Source: a bacterium (GTDB lineage: Bacteria > UBA9089 > JASEIO01). Taken from it: a DNA stretch of 12,631 nt. The position numbers were made by a program, and so were the translations under genes. Of the stretch, positions 1,147 through 12,178 are shown one piece after another; within the stretch, counting starts at the first letter, position 1; each line of letters begins with the position of its first letter. Below the pieces are notes generated by a model that did not search any database, was not told the origin of the DNA, and saw nothing but the letters and a program-made list of their open reading frames with translations. Where the stretch lies: assembly GCA_030017475.1 (NCBI GenBank), contig JASEIO010000044.1, forward strand, positions 1 through 12,631, in the 5' to 3' direction.

Positions 1147-4100
1147 ATGGAAATGGATGAGAGATTGATAAGGCTTGCCTATACCGATGATTTAACCGGA
1201 CTTTTTAATCGGAGATACCTCTATCAGATCTTACCAAAAGAGATTAAGGTTTCTGAAAATCTGGTTCTTCTAATGGTAGATATCGATAAATTTAAAAATT
1301 TTAACGATAGATACGGGCATTTAACCGGCGATCATATCCTACGCCAGGTTTCAATGGTATTAAAAGAGGATAGGAGAAAAGAGGATGTAGTAATTAGATA
1401 CGCAGGAGATGAATTTATCGTTATTCTACCGCATACCCAGGAAGAAGGGGGATTTGCTGTGGCCGAAAGAATTAGAAAAAAGGTAGAAGATTCTGTATTC
1501 TGTGTTCAAGAAGAAGGCCCCGCTCTTTTTACTACCTTAAGCATTGGTCTTGCTACCTATCCCAAGGATGCAAGTAGTGTAGAGGAACTGATTAACCAAG
1601 CAGATAAGGCATTGTATTATTCTAAGGAGAAAGGAAGAAACAGAACCTCTAAGATCTCTGATATTAAAGAAGAGGTGATTGATAAAAGTAAAATCTTGGA
1701 TGCCTTTCCTTGTAAAAAATTGGTCAATAGGAAAGAGGAGATCTTAAGTTTTCAAGAGTCTTTAGATTTAAAGCAGGGGGTTATTTTATTAAAGGGTGAT
1801 GCTGGGGTTGGAAAGACTCGTCTCTTAGAAGAATTCAAACGTATTGCTCAAAAAAAGGGATTTATAGTACTTCATGGAATGTGTTATGAGGAATATACAG
1901 AAAGCCCTTATCGGCCCCTCCAGACTATCTTAGAAAGGTATTTTAAAATTTTAGGAGAGATTTCTACCTTAAGATTCCTTAAGGGTTTAAAAAGGAGCGA
2001 TCTAAATGGATTAATTAAACTTATCCCTTCTCTTGGTAAAATGTTTCATTATGAAAACCTGCCTGATGAAAGGGTTCAGGTTTTTAGATGTATATCTTCG
2101 GTCTTAAACAATTTATCTAAAGAAACACCACTCGTTTTATTATTTGATGATTTTCATTGGGTAGATTCTGGGACGATTCAAGTTATTTCAGAGATAACTA
2201 AAAAAGAGACAAGGATCTTAGTGATAGGGGCATTTAGGTATGAAGAGGCAAGGGATTCCTTAAAAGGATTTAGAAGAGAAATAGAAAGGAAAAGACTCTT
2301 TTTGGAATTGGAGCTAAAACCATTTTCCTTGCTTGATGTTTCAGAAATGATTCAGGCTATTTTTCAGGGATTAAAAAGGGATCCGGAATTTGACCAATTA
2401 ATTTATCGTGTCACCGAAGGGAACCCTCTTTTTATAGAGGAGGTTTTAAAATCATTAGTTGAAGAGAATTTTATTTATTATAAAGATGGAATGTGGCATA
2501 GGAAAGAGATCTATCAGGAAAATATTCCTTCCTCATTGAGAGAGGTCATATACCGTAGATTTACCACTTTAGATGAAGAGACGAAAGACATTTTAAATAA
2601 GGCATCTGTAATTGGGAAAAGCTTTAATCTTATGACCTTACAAAAATTGGGGGATATAAATGAAGGATATTTAAGGGAGATTATTGATAGGGCATTGGCT
2701 TGCAAGTTAATTAAACAAGAGACAGACACGGAATTTGGTTTTGTCTCAGAGATCATTCAGGAATCTCTATATCAAAGGGCAGCGAATAAAAAGGATTTTC
2801 ACCTCCGGATAGGTGAGATTGAAGAAAAAGGAGGAGATATAGAAGAGATAGCTGCAAAATTGGCATATCATTTTCAAAAAGGTGGAGATATAGAAAAGGC
2901 AACCCTTTATGCAGTTAAGGCTCGGGAAAAGGCAAAAGAACTTTTTGTTTATGAAGAGGCAGCAAAATACCTGGAGAGAATGGAACGTCCCCCAATGGAG
3001 GTAGCAGAACATCCCTTAGATGAAGAATCTTTCCGTTTAATGATAGATGAGGTAAAATTTTTAACCATTGCTATAACCAACGTAAGGATGTACCCTAAAG
3101 GATCAGAGATTATAAAAGGTTCTCTCGAAAAGGCATATAAAAATTTGGCTGCGGTTTTAGAAAGGAATGAGGCAGTGACCTTAAGTGATGTTGAGGGAAG
3201 ATTGTTGATTAATGGGGAAGAATTGGGAAAGGAATTTTCCCTCTCTCAAAATCGCCTACTTTCTTTTATGAGAGACCTTGGATTATCAAGTATTACCATT
3301 TTAAAGGGCTTAGATTTACAGGAATTGAATACCTTTTTAGAGGCCACTTGTAAAAGGAGAGAGGAGTTCTATAAGGTGAAACTTTCCCATATAGGTTTTA
3401 ATTTAAGGAAATATGTGACTATGGATGAATTTTCTCAAGCGCTCTCTAAAGTGGATATAAAAAGGGTTTTGAAAGAATATGAACGGAGAGAAGAAGAATA
3501 TGAACGGAAAGAAGAGGAAGAAGGAGAAGAAAAGGGATTTCGCTTTAAAGAAGCAGGTGAGGTTTTTAGAAAAAAGGCTGAGCATATAAAAAGGGAGATA
3601 GGGGAATTCTCAAAACACATATTCCAAGAGAATCCTGAAGAGGCATTAAGAGAGATAGAGAAAAGGGTATCTACTGTAAATGGAGAGAAAAGGGAGGATA
3701 CCCTGGACCTCATTTCAGAAGAGATTTCAAGTCTTCCATCAGCGGTATTGACTCATCTTTTAACTCAAGAATCCTCAAGGCGCTTAGGGATAAAGGATAG
3801 AATAATCTCTCGCTTACCCTTTACGAAAACAATGGAGTTACTTGATCAGGCAATTAAAGAGTATAAAGAGAAAGGAAGTGAAGACCTTGAAGAGATTCTT
3901 TCTTATTTCTTGCGGCAAGAAAAAGAGAACTTCTCTCCCGAGGTTTATCAAAAATTGTATAAGGCTGGAATACTTAAAAAAATCCTTTCCAAGATAGATA
4001 AACCCAAAAAAGAGAAAAAAGAGGAGGAGTTAATTAGAAAGGCAAAGGAGTTTTTGGGTTTAGAGGTTATTCCCATGCGTCTCTTTGATGAAATCCCTGT

Positions 4101-5244
4101 GACCGCAACTGAACTTTTAGCCTTCGGAGAGGATGGATTGGTAGAGGATATAATCCTAAGATTGATCTCAGATTTAGAGAAAGACAAAACAAAATTTAAG
4201 GACGCATTTGCCTTAAAAAGGATCTTTTCCAGTTTAAAACACTTAGGAAAGGAAGATATTTCACGTAAATTGATGGGTCAATTAATTTCTCACTTCAGGA
4301 AGGAAAAAGATACTCAGGTATTTTTGGAATTGGCGGGTATCTTAGAGGAGATGGCTAAAGGTCTCCTGAAAGATAAGGTATATGAAGAGGGAAAAAGGAT
4401 AATCGATTTGTTTGGAAGAGAGTATGATCAAGAAAAGAATGATTATTTGAGGGGTGCCTTGGAAAGGATACGGGAGGAGAACCTATCTGAATTGATAATG
4501 GATTTTATAAAAGGGCACTCCTTGCAAGATGTATCAGAAATCCTAATTACAATAAGGGCTGATTTACCCTTGATTGATGTGATTAAAAGGGAAGATGATT
4601 TAGAGATAAGGAAGGCAGCATCCAGTTGTTTAAATAAAATGGGTAAAGAGGCCATCTTAAGATTAGGGAATGAATTGATGTGTGACTTGCCAGCTGAAAA
4701 CTTAGTTAGAATGCTTGAAGTGATCCCGGAGATTGAAGATCCGGATATATTCGAAAAGGCATCCCGTTTATTAACCAATCCAGATTTTAAGGTGAAGAAA
4801 AAGACACTTGAAGTTTTGTGTAAGAGAGGGGATAGGTTTGCACTTGAATTAATCCTCCAGGCCTTAAATGATGAAGAGATTTACCTTAGAAGATATGCCC
4901 TAAATATATTAGGAGAGATGAAAAAAGAGATAAAGATCTTAGCCTTGGAGGCATTAATTGACCTATTAGATAGAGAGGAGGATGTGTCTCAAAAAAGAGA
5001 GATATGTAATCTATTAGGAGATATAGGTGATACCAGGGCGCTTTCCCCATTAAATAGTGTAATTAAGGAATCAAGCCTTTTTTTGTTTCGAAGGGAGATC
5101 GATAGAGGATTAGTAATTGCCGCAATAAAATCCATAGGGAAGATTGGTGGAGAAGAAGCAAAAAGGATATTAGAAGAAGTGGCTATGGATAAAAGGAGAG
5201 AGGTCAGGACGATGGCTGAGATAACTTTAAGAAGATTAGGGTAA
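1147..5244 (+). CDS. Diguanylate cyclase (GGDEF) fused to STAND-type ATPase and HEAT-like repeats
   Basis: Predicted cytoplasmic c-di-GMP synthase under control of an NTPase. Residues 8-165 form a GGDEF domain with DDLTGLFNRR, the Mg-binding MVDIDKFKNFND, and GHLTGD with the Asp that selects guanine. The active-site loop is RYAGDEF (AGDEF at 86-90), with an RxxD inhibitory site (RKED, 77-80) exactly five residues before it. Residues about 190-460 are an AAA_16/MalT-like ATPase: Walker A GDAGVGKT (217-224), Walker B LVLLFDDFHWVD (329-340), and EGNPLFIEEVL (424-434). Residues 560-612 are TPR-like helices. Residues 630-760 (MYPKGSEIIKG, VEGRLLINGEEL) resemble a module found before HEAT repeats in large bacterial proteins. 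A charged coiled-coil stretch lies at 775-820 and HEAT-like helix pairs at about 1130-1365. The start is fixed by an in-frame TAA just before the ATG; GAGGGG (1132-1137) is the ribosome site. No membrane segment or signal peptide is seen. The domain calls are strong; the regulation is inferred. Confidence 0.88.
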   Translation: MEMDERLIRLAYTDDLTGLFNRRYLYQILPKEIKVSENLVLLMVDIDKFKNFNDRYGHLTGDHILRQVSMVLKEDRRKEDVVIRYAGDEFIVILPHTQEEGGFAVAERIRKKVEDSVFCVQEEGPALFTTLSIGLATYPKDASSVEELINQADKALYYSKEKGRNRTSKISDIKEEVIDKSKILDAFPCKKLVNRKEEILSFQESLDLKQGVILLKGDAGVGKTRLLEEFKRIAQKKGFIVLHGMCYEEYTESPYRPLQTILERYFKILGEISTLRFLKGLKRSDLNGLIKLIPSLGKMFHYENLPDERVQVFRCISSVLNNLSKETPLVLLFDDFHWVDSGTIQVISEITKKETRILVIGAFRYEEARDSLKGFRREIERKRLFLELELKPFSLLDVSEMIQAIFQGLKRDPEFDQLIYRVTEGNPLFIEEVLKSLVEENFIYYKDGMWHRKEIYQENIPSSLREVIYRRFTTLDEETKDILNKASVIGKSFNLMTLQKLGDINEGYLREIIDRALACKLIKQETDTEFGFVSEIIQESLYQRAANKKDFHLRIGEIEEKGGDIEEIAAKLAYHFQKGGDIEKATLYAVKAREKAKELFVYEEAAKYLERMERPPMEVAEHPLDEESFRLMIDEVKFLTIAITNVRMYPKGSEIIKGSLEKAYKNLAAVLERNEAVTLSDVEGRLLINGEELGKEFSLSQNRLLSFMRDLGLSSITILKGLDLQELNTFLEATCKRREEFYKVKLSHIGFNLRKYVTMDEFSQALSKVDIKRVLKEYERREEEYERKEEEEGEEKGFRFKEAGEVFRKKAEHIKREIGEFSKHIFQENPEEALREIEKRVSTVNGEKREDTLDLISEEISSLPSAVLTHLLTQESSRRLGIKDRIISRLPFTKTMELLDQAIKEYKEKGSEDLEEILSYFLRQEKENFSPEVYQKLYKAGILKKILSKIDKPKKEKKEEELIRKAKEFLGLEVIPMRLFDEIPVTATELLAFGEDGLVEDIILRLISDLEKDKTKFKDAFALKRIFSSLKHLGKEDISRKLMGQLISHFRKEKDTQVFLELAGILEEMAKGLLKDKVYEEGKRIIDLFGREYDQEKNDYLRGALERIREENLSELIMDFIKGHSLQDVSEILITIRADLPLIDVIKREDDLEIRKAASSCLNKMGKEAILRLGNELMCDLPAENLVRMLEVIPEIEDPDIFEKASRLLTNPDFKVKKKTLEVLCKRGDRFALELILQALNDEEIYLRRYALNILGEMKKEIKILALEALIDLLDREEDVSQKREICNLLGDIGDTRALSPLNSVIKESSLFLFRREIDRGLVIAAIKSIGKIGGEEAKRILEEVAMDKRREVRTMAEITLRRLG
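3475..3516 (+). repeat. Two tandem copies of a 21-bp unit inside the cyclase fusion gene
   Basis: The units at 3475-3495 and 3496-3516 differ at two bases and encode EYERREE and EYERKEE. Each adds one heptad of a charged helix, so a copy change keeps the frame and only lengthens or shortens the coiled-coil linker between the middle module and the C-terminal repeats. Confidence 0.85.
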
Positions 5245-6082: not shown

Positions 6083-6094
6083 TAATTACTTTTT

Positions 6095-6176
6095 CCCTAT
6101 CCCTTCCTAAGGCAATCTTTATAATATCTATAATATCAACTTCATCATCGGCAATTAATATCCTTTTCTTTCGCAT
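6095..6176 (-). pseudogene. N-terminal remnant of a response-regulator receiver domain
   Basis: Reading leftward from an ATG at 6176-6174, the first 27 or so codons give MRKKRILIADDEVDIIDII, then KIALGRDRE. This is the textbook start of a receiver domain: beta-1 ILIADDE with the acidic pair, then helix 1. After that the frame runs into the antisense of rmlD and no longer resembles a receiver domain; the phospho-accepting Asp, the Thr/Ser and the Lys are all missing. The likeness stops within about 15 bases of the rmlD stop codon, which looks like a rearrangement or deletion breakpoint. No clear ribosome site precedes the ATG. It is not a copy of the N-terminus of the regulator at 10811. Best read as a gene fragment, probably non-functional. 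Confidence 0.65.
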
Positions 6177-6186
6177 GGCAATTATC

Positions 6187-6216
6187 TTGACATTTACCTA
6201 ATTTTCAAAGTATACT
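6187..6216 (+). promoter_or_regulatory. Sigma-70 promoter for the glycosyltransferase pair
   Basis: A perfect -35 box TTGACA (6187-6192), an 18-base spacer and a -10 box TATACT (6211-6216, one mismatch to TATAAT). Expected transcription start is near 6223, giving a leader of roughly 70 bases before the GT2 start codon. The -10 sits in an 8-bp palindrome AGTATACT (6209-6216), so it also reads as TATACT leftward, but no matching -35 exists in that direction. Confidence 0.75.
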
Positions 6217-6296: not shown

Positions 6297-7247
6297 ATGT
6301 ATAGGGATAAACGAATTGGAGTAGTGATTCCATGCTTTAATGAAGAGAGACTGATTGAACGTACTATAACTACAATACCTAATTGGGTGGATAGGATGAT
6401 TGTAGTTGACGATGGATCGCATGATAAGTCTGTAGTAAAAATAAAGGAGCTAATGAATGAGTTAAAGGATAGGCTTATTCTCATTGAGCATGGAGAAAAT
6501 AAAGGGGTTGGGTCAGCTATTGTAAGTGGTTATAAAAAGGCATTGGAAGAGGGGCTCGATGTAGTTTGTGTGATGGCAGGAGATTCACAAATGGACCCAG
6601 AAGATCTCACCCATATTATTTCTCCAGTAGTTTCAGGAAAGGCAGATTATGTTAAAGGGAATAGATTATTTACTGGTGAAGCCTGGAAGAGGATTCCTAA
6701 ATACAGATATTTAGGAAATTCTATTCTATCCCTTTTAACAAAGATTGCATCTGGATATTGGCATGTAGCTGATTCCCAATCGGGTTATACTGCTATTACA
6801 CGGGATGTGTTAGATATCTTAGATTTAGATTCCATTTATTCAGGATATGGTTATACAAATGATTTATTGGTCAGATTAAACGTATATAATTTCCGGGTAA
6901 AGGATGTATCGATAAACCCTATTTATAATATCGGGGAGAAATCCAGGATAAATTTGTTAAGGGTCATACCTAGTATCTCCTTTTTATTACTTCGTAGATT
7001 CTTCTGGAGATTGAAAGAGAAATATGTCATTCGTGACTTCCATCCATTGGTCTTCTTCTATCTCATGTCCTTCCTTCTCCTTCCCGCTGGAGTGGTTTTT
7101 GGAGCCTATCTTATTTATCTAAGGCTTCGGCTTGGTGGAATTGCCCTTCCAGGGGTTATCCTCGATGCAGTTCTTTTAATCTCTGGCTTCCAGTCCTTGT
7201 TCTTTGCCTTCTGGTTTGATATGGATTATAATAAGGATCTAAAATGA
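6297..7247 (+). CDS. Family 2 glycosyltransferase, polyprenyl-phosphate glycosyltransferase type, membrane anchored
   Basis: A GT-A fold transferase that probably moves a sugar from a nucleotide donor to a polyprenyl (undecaprenyl) phosphate on the inner face of the cytoplasmic membrane. Visible motifs: VVIPCFNEE (9-17), VVDDGSHDKS (36-45), and GENKGVGSAIVSGYKKAL (67-83), typical of the dolichyl-phosphate mannose synthase-like group. The metal-binding motif is AGDSQMDPEDL (94-104) instead of the usual DADGQ form. YWHVADSQSGYTAI follows at 154-167. Two C-terminal hydrophobic segments (about 249-275 and 283-306) anchor the protein. An in-frame TGA at 6288-6290 excludes an earlier start; the ribosome site before the ATG is weak. 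Its own promoter lies at 6187-6216. The gene overlaps the next glycosyltransferase by 4 bases (ATGA), so translation is probably coupled. The sugar and acceptor cannot be named. Confidence 0.88.
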   Translation: MYRDKRIGVVIPCFNEERLIERTITTIPNWVDRMIVVDDGSHDKSVVKIKELMNELKDRLILIEHGENKGVGSAIVSGYKKALEEGLDVVCVMAGDSQMDPEDLTHIISPVVSGKADYVKGNRLFTGEAWKRIPKYRYLGNSILSLLTKIASGYWHVADSQSGYTAITRDVLDILDLDSIYSGYGYTNDLLVRLNVYNFRVKDVSINPIYNIGEKSRINLLRVIPSISFLLLRRFFWRLKEKYVIRDFHPLVFFYLMSFLLLPAGVVFGAYLIYLRLRLGGIALPGVILDAVLLISGFQSLFFAFWFDMDYNKDLK

Positions 7248-8398
7248 GAATCTTTATGCTAACCACTTCCTTCCCTCGAGAAAAAGGAGATTTTGCAGGG
7301 ATATTTGTATATGAATTGGCTAAAGGATTAGTAAGAATTGGTTATGATATCAATGTAATCTGTCCAAGTAGTGTTGAAACAAAAGGGTTTGAGGTCATGG
7401 ATGGAATTAAGATATATAGATTTAATTATTTCATACCTCGTATCCTACAAAAAGTGGCTTATGGGAGTGGCATCTTCCTTAACCTAAGGAAGAGTATATT
7501 GGCAAAGCTTGAATTACCTCTGTTTGCCTTCTTTTTCCTGATAAAGGCCGTAGTATTATGTAAAGGGTGTGATCTTATCCATGCCCATTTTGTCTTTTCA
7601 GGATTGATAGGTATTTTTGTAGCTAAGATTTATAAAATAAAGATAGTTTTAACCGCCCATGGAAGTGATATAAACTATTTAGAGAAAAGTGGTCTATTGA
7701 GAAGAACGTGTCTTTTTATCCTTCGTAGGGTCTGCAGGGTGATAGCGGTTAGCAATTCATTGAAGCACAAGATGGTGGAGATAGGGATTTCATCTTGCAA
7801 AATTACAGTAATTCCGAATGGTGTAAATCTTCAAAATTTTAAACCACGAAAAAGGGACAAAGTAGGCTTCCAATTACTTTGGGTTGGAAGGTTGATTGAG
7901 GAGAAGGGTGTAGTATTTCTAATTGAAGCGCTTAAATGGGTAAATGAGGAGATTCCACATACTAAGCTAATCCTTATTGGGGAAGGAGAGCTTAAGGAGA
8001 GACTTAAAAGGCTTTCTCGCCATTTAGCTCTCTATAATGTTGATTTTATGGGAGAGGTAAGTCATTCCGTAATTTCAGGATATATGGAATCTGCAGATTT
8101 ATTCATCTTACCTTCCCTACAGGAAGGACTACCTTTAGCTCTATTGGAGGCAATGGCTATGGGTTTGCCAGTGATTGCTACATCGGTTGGAGGGATTAAA
8201 GATGTTGTTATCCATGAAAAAACTGGCATATTGATTCCTCCCAAAAAACCACGCCTATTAGCGGAAAAGATAATATATTTGTTGAAAGATGAAGATCTGA
8301 GAAAAAAGATAGGAGAAAATGGGAGGAGAAGGGTTGAGGAGCACTTCACATGGGATAGGATTGTAAAGGATACCTCTCGGGTTTATAATTGGGTTTGA
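7244..8398 (+). CDS. Family 4 glycosyltransferase (GT-B fold)
   Basis: A retaining nucleotide-sugar glycosyltransferase, likely acting on a lipid-linked or surface polysaccharide at the cytoplasmic side of the membrane. The N-terminal acceptor lobe has MLTTSFPREKGDFAGIFVYE, the HAHFVFSG region (113-120) and LTAHGSDIN (136-144). The linker has VIAVSNS and ITVIPNGVNLQNF (187-199). The donor lobe has LLWVGRLIEEKGV (211-223) and the E-x7-E motif EGLPLALLE (294-302), followed by AMAMGLPVIATSVGG. These are the hallmarks of GT4 enzymes, and the 384-residue length is normal. The ATG overlaps the GT2 stop as ATGA, and AAGGA (7233-7237) sits six bases upstream within the GT2 gene. A hydrophobic stretch near 92-105 may help membrane association. 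Substrate is unknown; nearby rmlD makes dTDP-rhamnose one candidate donor (inference). Confidence 0.92.
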   Translation: MRIFMLTTSFPREKGDFAGIFVYELAKGLVRIGYDINVICPSSVETKGFEVMDGIKIYRFNYFIPRILQKVAYGSGIFLNLRKSILAKLELPLFAFFFLIKAVVLCKGCDLIHAHFVFSGLIGIFVAKIYKIKIVLTAHGSDINYLEKSGLLRRTCLFILRRVCRVIAVSNSLKHKMVEIGISSCKITVIPNGVNLQNFKPRKRDKVGFQLLWVGRLIEEKGVVFLIEALKWVNEEIPHTKLILIGEGELKERLKRLSRHLALYNVDFMGEVSHSVISGYMESADLFILPSLQEGLPLALLEAMAMGLPVIATSVGGIKDVVIHEKTGILIPPKKPRLLAEKIIYLLKDEDLRKKIGENGRRRVEEHFTWDRIVKDTSRVYNWV

Positions 8399-8423
8399 CA
8401 TTCTGTGTGATTTGTGGTATCAT
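8395..8423 (+). promoter_or_regulatory. Sigma-70 promoter overlapping the GT4 stop codon
   Basis: A perfect -35 box TTGACA (8395-8400) shares its TGA with the stop codon of the GT4 gene. A 17-base spacer leads to TATCAT (8418-8423, one mismatch to TATAAT). Expected transcription start is near 8430, about ten bases before the hairpin at 8441. It would serve the kinase/regulator operon or a short leader RNA. Confidence 0.75.
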
Positions 8424-8440
8424 AATATAAAGGGATAATC

Positions 8441-8520
8441 AGCCACGAGGAGCACAACTTTTAAGATATAAGGGTATGGAGCGATTGAATCTTGTTGTGT
8501 CTTTTCGTGGCTTCTTTTTT
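8441..8520 (+). terminator. Long imperfect hairpin followed by a U-tract; terminator or attenuator
   Basis: Left arm 8441-8467 pairs with right arm 8489-8512. There are 12 continuous pairs (8441-8452 with 8501-8512, two of them G-U), a one-base bulge (T8500), 6 pairs (8453-8458 with 8494-8499), a four-T bulge (8459-8462), and 5 pairs (8463-8467 with 8489-8493), for 23 pairs in all. The base of the stem is GC-rich (AGCCACGA / TCGTGGCT), and TTCTTTTTT follows directly (8513-8520), the classical layout of an intrinsic terminator on the + strand. The G-U pairs favour folding of the + strand RNA. The 21-base loop (8468-8488) holds AGGG and the ATG at 8476. It may end the glycosyltransferase transcript, attenuate the kinase operon, or end a short RNA begun at the 8395 promoter. 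No folding energy was computed. Confidence 0.6.
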
Positions 8521-10734
8521 AAATCAACCATGAGACATCTTCGTGGTTTATTAAAAAACAGGTTAGTGGTTGGTGGGGGGATAGGGATATTTGTAGCCAC
8601 ATTTTCCTTTATTATATCTCAAATTGAAGTTTTTGAAACATTGGAATTGAGACTGCTTGATTATAGATATCCTTTAAAATGGAAAGATACGACTAGCTCA
8701 AATATAATTATAATATTAATAGATGAGGAGTTTAAAGAGGAGGATTTTCCTTTCCTTTTTAAGGAATTGCTGGATAAGGGGGCACGTGTTTTGTGTTTTG
8801 ATGTCTTTTTAAAGGATGAAGCAGTAAAAATGGCTATAGAAGAGCTGGCCTTTGCCAATCCACTAAATTCCATTATCTATCCCATTAAATTTATCCTAAA
8901 AAGGCATATCTATTATGACTTAGGAGAACATGCCTATGCCAATAAAATCTTAGCCTCAAGCCATATAATCATGCCTTATCATAGATTGGCCTTCTTAAGA
9001 ATTCGTTCCTCAATGTTTGGTCAGACAAACACATGCCTGGATTTGGATGGGAAGGCGAGGCATGTTCCAGTTGTAGTAGAATATGAAGATAGATTTTATC
9101 CTGCTTTAGGGGTGCAGGCAGTGAATAGCTATTTAGAAGATAGGAGGGAGAAGGGAGAAGAGGAAATAGAAATAATCCCTGGGAAAAGGGTTAAGGTGAG
9201 AGGGATTAGTATTCCAATTGATAAAAATGGATTGGCATTAATAAATTACTATAGAGATATGTTTAAGACTTACAAAGCCTCTCAAGTTATCACCCACCAC
9301 TCATCATCAATCCCTCCTCACCTATTCAAAGATAGGATTGTTTTTATTGGGGCAAAGGAATCTATCCCTACACCTCTTCGGATTGATTCACCCGAGATAT
9401 TGGTTCAAGCAACCATAGCCAATAATATATTAGAGGGGGAGATGCTTCGGAAGGCAAATGGGTTTACGGATTTCCTCCTCACAGTCCTATTAGGGATATT
9501 GATTGGGTTGAGTTTACGATTTCGACATCTTTCTGCGCTTATATACACCATCCTTACATTTTCATGTTTTGTTATTCTTTCTTTCTTAGCCTTCTCCCTT
9601 GGGGTGGTAGTGGATGTTTTACCAGAGATTTTAACTACCCTCTTTTGTTTTCCTTTGGTTACTATTTATGGATATGCGTTAACAGAAAGGAAGATTGTTA
9701 GCTCCTTAGATAGGCTTAAATATTATAATCAATCAGTTATTGATTCTATGAATAGTGGTCTTATTGTGGTGGATAGGGAAGGGAAAATAACTACATTTAA
9801 TAATAAAGCCCGGGAGATATTAGGGATAGATAAAGACCTTACGGTTATTGGTCTTCATTTCGAACAGGTATTTGAAGGAATGAAGGAATTGAGTGAGGTT
9901 TTGAGGTATTTGCTAACCGAACAAAGGAATTTCCAAAATTTCGAATTTGAACATGATAATAAAAATATTATTCTTAATACCTCTATATTAAAAGATAGGA
10001 GGAATGAATTGATTGGAGGTTTGGTTGTTTTTCAAGATGTAACGATGATGAAACGCTTGCAGGCTGAAGTAGAATTGAAAAAAAGGTTATCTGCTATTGG
10101 TGAATTAGGGGCAAAGCTTGCCCATTCATTAAGAAATCCATTAGGGGCAATTTTAGGTGCTTCTAAGCTTTTAAGGGATGAGATGGAGTGTGATAATGAG
10201 TATTTGAAGATTATCTTGGATGAGGGTCGGGAATTGAATAATCTGATTGAAGAATTTTTAAACTTTTCTAAGCCATTTTCTATGTGGTTGCAAGAGGTAG
10301 ATATAAATGAGATATTAGAAGATAGCCTATCTTTTTCCTTGCAAAATGTAGAAAGGGATAATATAATAATAAAGAAGGAATTGGCTTACGATTTACCAAA
10401 GGTAAAGGTGGATATAAACCGAATAAAAGAGGTATTTATGAATTTAATTGATAACGCCCTATCTTCCATGCCGGATGGTGGGGAGTTAAGTATTCGTTCA
10501 ACGTTCAACGTTCAACGTTCAACGATAGAGGTTGAATTTAAAGATACTGGTTGTGGTATTTCCAAGGAAAATATTGGGAAGATATTTGATCCATTTTTTA
10601 CTACAAAAGAAAAAGGAACTGGACTTGGACTATCCATTGTACATAAAATAATTGAGCTTCACAAAGGGAAGATAGAATGCCAGTCCGAGGTTGGTAAGGG
10701 AACAATCTTTACCATTGAGCTGCCATGCGGGTAG
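8476..10734 (+). CDS. CHASE2-PAS sensor histidine kinase
   Basis: Membrane sensor kinase of the NtrB-like group, partner of the regulator at 10811. Order: N-terminal membrane helix (about 29-49), extracytoplasmic CHASE2 domain (about 50-325; LELRLLDYRYPLK, ILIDEE, GARVLCFDVF, DRIVFIGA), three membrane helices (about 333-348, 352-376, 379-400), and a PAS domain (415-525; SGLIVVDREGKITTFNNKA). The HisKA domain carries H550 in LAHSLRNPLGAI. The HATPase domain has NLIDNALSSMPDGG (656-669), DTGCGIS (690-696), FDPFFTTK and GTGLGLS (714-720). The residue after the phospho-histidine is Ser, where Glu or Asp is usual. Start is uncertain. ATG 8476 lies in a hairpin loop with AGGG only one base away. 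ATG 8530 (residue 19) lies after the U-tract and begins a normal basic tail plus membrane helix, but lacks a ribosome site; I think 8530 is at least as likely. A heptamer repeat interrupts the ATPase domain at 10495-10522. Confidence 0.92.
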   Translation: MERLNLVVSFRGFFFKSTMRHLRGLLKNRLVVGGGIGIFVATFSFIISQIEVFETLELRLLDYRYPLKWKDTTSSNIIIILIDEEFKEEDFPFLFKELLDKGARVLCFDVFLKDEAVKMAIEELAFANPLNSIIYPIKFILKRHIYYDLGEHAYANKILASSHIIMPYHRLAFLRIRSSMFGQTNTCLDLDGKARHVPVVVEYEDRFYPALGVQAVNSYLEDRREKGEEEIEIIPGKRVKVRGISIPIDKNGLALINYYRDMFKTYKASQVITHHSSSIPPHLFKDRIVFIGAKESIPTPLRIDSPEILVQATIANNILEGEMLRKANGFTDFLLTVLLGILIGLSLRFRHLSALIYTILTFSCFVILSFLAFSLGVVVDVLPEILTTLFCFPLVTIYGYALTERKIVSSLDRLKYYNQSVIDSMNSGLIVVDREGKITTFNNKAREILGIDKDLTVIGLHFEQVFEGMKELSEVLRYLLTEQRNFQNFEFEHDNKNIILNTSILKDRRNELIGGLVVFQDVTMMKRLQAEVELKKRLSAIGELGAKLAHSLRNPLGAILGASKLLRDEMECDNEYLKIILDEGRELNNLIEEFLNFSKPFSMWLQEVDINEILEDSLSFSLQNVERDNIIIKKELAYDLPKVKVDINRIKEVFMNLIDNALSSMPDGGELSIRSTFNVQRSTIEVEFKDTGCGISKENIGKIFDPFFTTKEKGTGLGLSIVHKIIELHKGKIECQSEVGKGTIFTIELPCG
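8538..8548 (+). repeat. Additional copy of the TTCGTGG hairpin arm, downstream of the U-tract
   Basis: The 11 bases at 8538-8548 can also pair without a gap with 8441-8451, the left arm of the upstream hairpin (two G-U pairs). The same left arm therefore has two possible partners, 8501-8512 and 8538-8548. The second pairing would enclose the ATG at 8530. This may be an alternative leader fold, or simply another copy of a short dispersed repeat. Confidence 0.4.
10495..10522 (+). repeat. Four perfect tandem copies of the heptamer CGTTCAA in the kinase gene
   Basis: Units at 10495-10501, 10502-10508, 10509-10515 and 10516-10522, all identical. Read in the kinase frame they give the loop RSTFNVQRST between two strands of the ATP-binding domain, just before the DTGCGIS box. 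Seven is not a multiple of three, so gain or loss of one or two units shifts the frame, while three units add or remove seven residues in frame. Confidence 0.97.
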
Positions 10735-10810: not shown

Positions 10811-12178
10811 ATGGCTTCTATATTAGTAGTGGACGACCATAAATCTGAAAGATTGGTTATGAGCGCTCCGTTGCGGAAAGAAGGTCATGAGTTGGAAGAG
10901 GCAGAGTCAGGGGAAGAGGCATGCAAGAAATTAAATGATAAGGTATTTGATGTGGTGGTAACGGATATAAAAATGGGGAAGGTATCTGGTTTAGATGTTT
11001 TAAGGGAGATAAAGAAGACCTCACCCCACACCATTGTGATTTTAGTTACTGCTTATGGCACAATTGAACAAGCTGTACAGGCTATAAAAGAAGGGGCTTA
11101 TGATTTTATAACCAAGCCTATTGATACTGCGGAGTTACTGGTAAAGATAAATAAAGCTATTCAACAATTGGATATAATCTCAGAAAATATATATCTCCGG
11201 GAGAGGATAAAAACAGAGGTCGGGGAGATTATAGGGGATACCGAAGAGATTCGAGAGGTATATAGGGCCATAGATAATATAGCCAAGTTAGAAACCCCAG
11301 TATTAATTAGTGGAGAGAATGGAGTTGGGAAGGAATTGGTAGCCAGGGCAATTCATGAAAGATCCCAAAGAAGAGATAAGCCATTTATAGCTGTAAATTT
11401 AGCTGCTGTGCCTTTGGGTTTGATTGAGTCAGAATTATTTGGTCATGAGAAAGGGGCATTTACCGGAGCTGATCGACGTAGAATTGGAAGGTTTGAATTG
11501 GCTCGAGAGGGTACCCTATTTTTAGATGAGATTGCAGAAATACCACAAGTATTGCAGGTAAAGTTATTAAGAGTTCTACAAGAGAAGGAATTTCAGAGGG
11601 TAGGCGGCACTGCTACTTTAAAAACAGATGCCCGAATTATCGCTGCTACAAATCAAGATTTAGAAAAAAGGATAGAGGAAAATAGGTTTAGGGAGGATCT
11701 TTATTATAGATTAAATGTATTTCCTATACATGTTCCACCCTTACGAGAAAGGAAAGAAGATATTCCTAAGTTGATTAGTTATTTTATTTCGAAATACAAT
11801 GCAATTATGATGAAAAATATAGAAGGAATTTCTCGGGATGCATTAGATGTATTGGTTCGATATGACTGGCCAGGGAATATAAGAGAACTTCAAAATATTA
11901 TTCAGAGAATGATTATTCAATCAAGGCACGCCCTTTTAGAACTGGAAGATGTCCCTTTAGAAATAAGAGAGCCAAGTAAAAAGGTAAAGAAAATGGATTT
12001 TTCTCAAGCCATTGACAATTTAATTGAGGCATATGATTTTGAAAAAGGCAAATCTTTATGGGACGATACCCAGAGGATGCTTGTTCGACATATGGTAAAA
12101 AAGGTAGGAGAAAAGAATAAATCAGCGGAACTCTTAGGTATCTCAAAGCCAACCCTTTATAGCTGGCTAGAGAAATAA
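10811..12178 (+). CDS. NtrC-family sigma-54-dependent response regulator
   Basis: Cytoplasmic transcription activator that, once phosphorylated by its kinase, opens sigma-54 RNA polymerase promoters. Receiver domain 1-120: acidic pair D8/D9, phospho-accepting D52 in VVTDIKM, T80 and K102. AAA+ domain about 140-375: Walker A GENGVGKE (168-175), the sigma-54-contacting loop GAFTGA (215-220), Walker B GTLFLDEI (234-241), arginine-finger segment [12 protein letters not shown] (293-304), and the [10 protein letters not shown] sensor-II motif (353-362). A Fis-type helix-turn-helix ends the protein ([21 protein letters not shown] region, 435-455). At 455 residues it is the normal length. It follows the CHASE2 kinase by 76 bases in the same direction, the usual kinase-regulator pairing. 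Its targets are unknown: I found no -24/-12 promoter (TGGCAC-N5-TTGCA) in the gaps of this window, so it probably acts elsewhere. Confidence 0.96.

Follow-up and report, generated by a model that had tools for sequence, protein, structure and literature searches.

Introduction

A leader that combines a promoter, a strong hairpin, a U-tract and a possible start codon ahead of a sensor kinase gene raises the question of whether the cell uses it as a regulatory RNA. Such a leader occurs in the window, the whole stretch of 12,631 nucleotides analyzed here (contig JASEIO010000044.1 of assembly GCA_030017475.1, lineage UBA9089; Table 1). An initial annotation of this DNA had left three readings open: an attenuator of the kinase/regulator operon, a stable RNA of roughly 90 bases, or the end of the glycosyltransferase operon. 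We evaluated these readings, together with a further one that emerged from comparison with dispersed repeats.

Results

Table 1. Features of the window that bear on the leader of the sensor kinase gene
Feature	Positions	Strand	Remarks
Family-4 glycosyltransferase (GT4)	7244..8398	+	5' of the kinase; stop codon overlaps the -35 of the 8395 promoter
Promoter TTGACA-17-TATCAT (probable)	8395..8423	+	TTGACA 8395-8400, 17-nt spacer, TATCAT 8418-8423
Imperfect palindrome / RNA hairpin	8441..8512	+	18 outer + 5 inner pairs; arms GCCACGAGGAGCACAAC and GCCACGAAAAGACACAAC (reverse complement)
CHASE2-PAS-HisKA-HATPase sensor kinase	8476..10734	+	frame at its longest, starting at ATG 8476; ATG 8530 is another possible start
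U-tract TTCTTTTTT	8512..8520	+	directly 3' of the stem; outside the repeat family
Small second hairpin AACCATGAG-ACATC-TTCGTGGTT	8524..8547	+	ATG 8530 lies inside it; repeat motif in the right arm (CCACGAAGA on -)
NtrC-type response regulator (receiver, sigma-54 activator)	10811..12178	+	3' of the sensor kinase

Genes and promoter

The kinase gene is preceded by genes for RmlD and for GT2 and GT4 glycosyltransferases, and the NtrC-type regulator encoded behind it is its probable operon partner. A second strong promoter-like site, TTGACA-18-TATACT at 6187-6216 (+), lies ahead of the GT2 glycosyltransferase gene. Between rmlD and this site the minus strand (6087-6176) carries the cut-off start of a response-regulator receiver, 30 codons long (MRKKRILIADDEVDIIDIIKIALGRDREKV). 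No second copy of this fragment was found in the organism's own genome, and it looks like the remnant of a truncated gene. Positions 1147-5244 (+) encode a single protein of 1365 residues in which a GGDEF domain, an AAA_16 ATPase and HEAT repeats are joined in an unusual architecture.

The site at 8395, located where the initial annotation had put it, matches the promoter consensus at 11 of 12 positions, and a TG precedes its -10 element. Throughout the 1.64-Mb genome there are 39 sites of the form TTGACA-N16-18-TATNAT versus 2 of the reversed pattern. This enrichment indicates that a sigma-70-like grammar is used in this organism and that the 8395 site is probably a real promoter, from which RNA is predicted to start near 8430. 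The leaders behind 30 strong promoters of this genome are usually short (median, 11 nt). When the 100 nt after each predicted start were compared, the 8395 leader was the most structured of the 30, with a z score of about -4 to -5; the next had a z score of -2.1. These values bear out the earlier view that the leader goes beyond an ordinary 5' UTR.

Fold of the leader

RNAfold predicted an outer stem of 18 pairs with one bulge (8441-8458 with 8494-8512) and an inner stem of 5 pairs (8463-8467 with 8489-8493), in agreement with the 23-pair imperfect stem described previously. The segment 8425-8560, for which folding had been suggested, has a minimum free energy of -42.8 kcal/mol, far below the mean of its dinucleotide shuffles (-24.7 kcal/mol; n=200; z -5.4), none of which equaled it. 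The 92-nt unit expected as the putative transcript (8430-8521) has a z score of -4.7, and the hairpin stem itself has an energy of -29.8 kcal/mol. The fold of the minus strand is weaker (-29.7). Four transitions are present in the paired arms, two per hairpin, and all of them leave G-U pairs in the RNA of the plus strand, which is the strand transcribed from 8395; the chance expectation of such a four-of-four pattern is 1 in 16. A search of Rfam 15 with the leader unit gave no match above the gathering score. SpF61, which came up at permissive E-values, was rejected as a chance match (18.6 bits versus a cut-off of 60). The remainder of the unit 8430-8520 has no other match in the organism's own genome.

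Relationship to a dispersed palindromic repeat

The hairpin's outer arms are similar to a palindromic repeat, GCCACGAAGRCACGAAG...CTTCGTGYCTTCGTGGC, that occurs dispersed and whose arms consist of an octamer-like CCACGAAGRCACGAAG in inverted orientation, built from tandem 8-base units CACGAAGR. On the left the arm reads GCCACGAGGAGCACAAC and on the right, after reverse complementation, GCCACGAAAAGACACAAC; both are like GCCACGAAGACACGAAG. The motif was picked after the window had been viewed, and its abundance was then checked independently: with one mismatch allowed, CCACGAAGNCACGAAG has 153, 66 and 46 matches in genomes of the same phylum versus 0 to 1 in the reversed control. The fetched examples often form inverted pairs 50 to 220 bp apart, whose loops span roughly 20 to 200 nt. 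The CCACGAAGRCACGAAG repeats reach tens to more than 100 copies in five genomes (G001, G011, G015, G017 and G058), and in G015 they are often near contig ends, where they may break assemblies. A scan of genome contigs with a variant motif gave one match, in a Bryobacterales MAG, and was uninformative. A search of the literature with repeat strings found no description of the CCACGAAG palindrome family.

Only about five copies are recognizable in the organism's own genome. The best is a 118-bp palindrome (C67:26869-26986; L032 1500-1617), which, like the hairpin in the window, has a promoter-like sequence (TTGACA-17-TACTAT, recognized by eye) on one side and the start of the next gene on the other. 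Another, a CCACGAAG palindrome (C111:33789; L038 1500-1575), extends over the 3' end of the preceding frame and is situated about 30 bases ahead of a ligase-like frame. Further copies of the motif are found at C18:11656-11682 and C52:11530. Palindromes of a second dispersed family also occur in this genome (L050 1604-1663 and L055 1882-1932); their arms are of the type CTGATTACACAGA / TCTGTGTAATCAG.

The inverted arms in the window agree with a start of RCCACGAAGR at 18 of 20 positions, a resemblance of moderate strength for which permutation of stem columns gave a p value of 0.0018 anchored at the stem end and 0.02 unanchored. The right arm of the second hairpin also resembles the repeat (permutation p 0.0035), and two exact copies of CCACGARGA lie within 104 bp in the window. 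Two or more ungapped CACGAAGR units per arm, as the family has, are not present here: 1- to 2-nt insertions separate the two units, and the second is shifted by that distance and diverged (CACAAC). When the window was scanned with a sharp position profile of the repeat, nothing scored above shuffles, and the single-arm scores were unexceptional on their own. At both G-U pairs of the first hairpin one arm retains the family base, A from the right arm and G from the left, so that the two arms combined spell GCCACGAAGA. These comparisons, with permutation p values from 0.02 to 0.002, moderately support membership in the repeat family, and the palindrome at 8441-8512 is a probable decayed relative of the CCACGAAG family rather than an intact member.

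U-tract and terminator character

The U-tract sits behind the stem as reported earlier, and its first base (8512) is also paired in the minimum-energy fold. Among palindrome ends in other genomes, some of them from overlapping fetched loci, only 1 of 46 is followed by a T-rich tail, and by this comparison the U-tract is particular to this copy. Its presence is the strongest reason to think that this copy acts as a terminator.

The description of the hairpin as terminator-like is fair. A stable stem is followed at once by the U-tract, as in an intrinsic terminator, and terminators exist in this genome. The size does not conform, since with 18+5 pairs and an apical region of 21 nt both stem and loop exceed canonical ones, and a consensus terminator scan (loops of 3 to 8) missed the hairpin because its loop is long. 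Strict short-loop terminators with T tails numbered 20 at the scanned own-genome loci versus 7 for the A-tail control; with stems of at least 7 pairs, at least 4 of them G-C, the ratio was 9:0 in 138 kb, and a further count gave 10:1. This excess suggests that intrinsic termination is probably in use in the organism. A loose count of hairpins followed by T runs showed no excess over A runs in 141 kb and was judged uninformative given the stricter count. The hairpin at 8441-8512 has the lowest energy of all hairpins with a T run in about 141 kb, one tRNA-like fold excepted.

Alternative pairing and the kinase start codon

The alternative partner proposed for the left arm exists, as the duplex with 8538-8548 has an energy of -16.4 kcal/mol. 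Forcing this pairing gives -34.1 kcal/mol versus a minimum of -41.5 kcal/mol, a cost of about 7 kcal/mol. Because polymerase must already have cleared the U-tract before 8538-8548 is transcribed, this segment has no way of acting as an antiterminator, and it is the sole alternative partner; snapshots of the growing RNA fold straight into the terminator hairpin. The match is most simply attributed to the presence of the same repeat motif in both hairpins.

The loop was said to hold both AGGG and the first possible ATG. The ATG at 8476 is indeed unpaired in the loop; the AGGG upstream of it is half paired. ATG 8530 is fully paired in the second hairpin. It has no Shine-Dalgarno sequence, and ATG 8476 has AAGG at short spacing. 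A tblastn search of GTDB contigs found no kinase orthologues. The nearest CHASE2 kinase found, in G011, is 32% identical over residues 136-733, and its start is within about 100 nt of a contig end. It has approximately 5 to 11 residues before the first transmembrane stretch, compared with 12, counted by eye, in the form starting at 8530. The sequence comparison leans toward a kinase start near 8530, as the 18-residue extension that results from a start at 8476 has no counterpart in the G011 kinase, but the missing Shine-Dalgarno sequence counts against 8530, and either codon may be the start.

Discussion

The explanation that we prefer, with about even confidence, is that a decayed repeat palindrome with a U-tract acts as a constitutive, leaky terminator in the kinase leader. 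The dispersed palindromic repeat, with its inverted CCACGAAGRCACGAAG arms, would sit between the promoter of the kinase operon and the start codon, and hairpin and U-tract together would form a passive intrinsic terminator of partial efficiency. Most transcripts from 8430 would then stop near 8520, giving an RNA of about 90 bases, as would transcripts reading through from the glycosyltransferase operon; the remaining transcripts would continue into the kinase and regulator genes. We infer that termination does take place, that it is leaky and that no regulating signal is involved. The leader would probably trim the amount of kinase message rather than serve as a sensing switch. Its structure is real and ordinary in kind.

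An inert repeat insertion is unlikely; polymerase would simply read through it, and translation would start either in the exposed loop (8476) or close to 8530. The copies in the organism's own genome are in varied intergenic places, with one reaching into a coding frame at its 3' end, copies in other genomes are without U-tracts, and the first ATG is unpaired, all of which would fit an insertion of this kind. However, it would leave the 9-base U-tract right at this stem, unlike the other copies, to coincidence, and strict terminators are present in the genome. Less probable still is an attenuator in which a protein, a ribosome or a small molecule chooses between termination at 8520 and read-through of the kinase operon. 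It is suggested by the crowding of a promoter, a strong hairpin, a U-tract and a start codon into 135 bases, by the potential of a start codon in the loop to couple translation to opening of the hairpin, and by wobble differences that in every case leave the plus-strand RNA paired. Yet no competing structure precedes the terminator, the proposed partner is behind the U-tract, there is no Rfam match, and the similarity of the arms is accounted for by repeat kinship. Thus, the attenuator reading of the initial annotation is not supported. We see a similarly slim prospect, to be judged separately, that the repeat palindrome, of a kind common in this uncultured phylum, now serves the CHASE2 kinase/NtrC operon as a regulated switch of transcription or translation, with the start codon in its loop and the 90-base RNA as a by-product.

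The spacing of promoter and terminator-like end is also compatible with the stable RNA of about 90 bases that had been suggested, and a separate gene for a trans-acting small RNA (8430-8520) could be proposed from its own promoter, its suitably spaced end and its compact fold. We consider this very doubtful, as nothing specific speaks for it: the unit belongs to no Rfam family, its arms are repeat-like and the rest of it is unmatched in the genome. Furthermore, it overlaps the kinase frame from 8476 and would leave the kinase without another nearby promoter. The hairpin is compatible with a role as terminator of the glycosyltransferase operon, as it begins 43 bases past the glycosyltransferase stop codon, a usual distance for terminators, and that operon is served by a promoter of its own (6187-6216). 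That this is its whole function, the 8395 promoter being idle and kinase transcripts coming from read-through or from elsewhere, is the least probable of these readings, because the 8395 site is an 11/12 match to a grammar whose occurrences in this genome are hardly ever random.

The leader illustrates a trap for anyone who infers regulatory RNA from sequence only. A single palindromic repeat, present in several copies, can give a leader the look of a switch, with a strong hairpin, a second partner for one of its arms and a start codon that is buried. Several of the phylum's genomes contain the CCACGAAG family in high numbers.

Comparison with known systems

Like classical attenuators and riboswitches, the window has a promoter, a terminator hairpin and a U-tract before a coding region; unlike them, it has no antiterminator ahead of the terminator and no Rfam match. 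REP elements and BIMEs are likewise intergenic palindromes that can lower downstream transcription, BIMEs being associated with transcription attenuation in the account that PMC12306157 and PMC3049150 give of Espeli 2001. However, no REP consensus was seen, and the arms here are tandem CACGAAGR units with highly variable loops. The SPRITE repeat of Streptococcus pneumoniae has an 18-bp stem and a U-rich tract, and its co-option as a terminator has been proposed (PMC3049150). It resembles the window in being a dispersed repeat in which a stem of about 18 bp is followed by a U-rich tract, with the look of an oversized Rho-independent terminator. Its sequence is unrelated, its U-rich tract is within the repeat whereas that of the window is outside it, and SPRITEs are mostly at the 3' ends of genes whereas the copy in the window is 3' of a promoter. 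If termination is real, the window would add a further case, like the pneumococcal SPRITEs, of a repeat put to use in termination, in this instance within a 5' leader.
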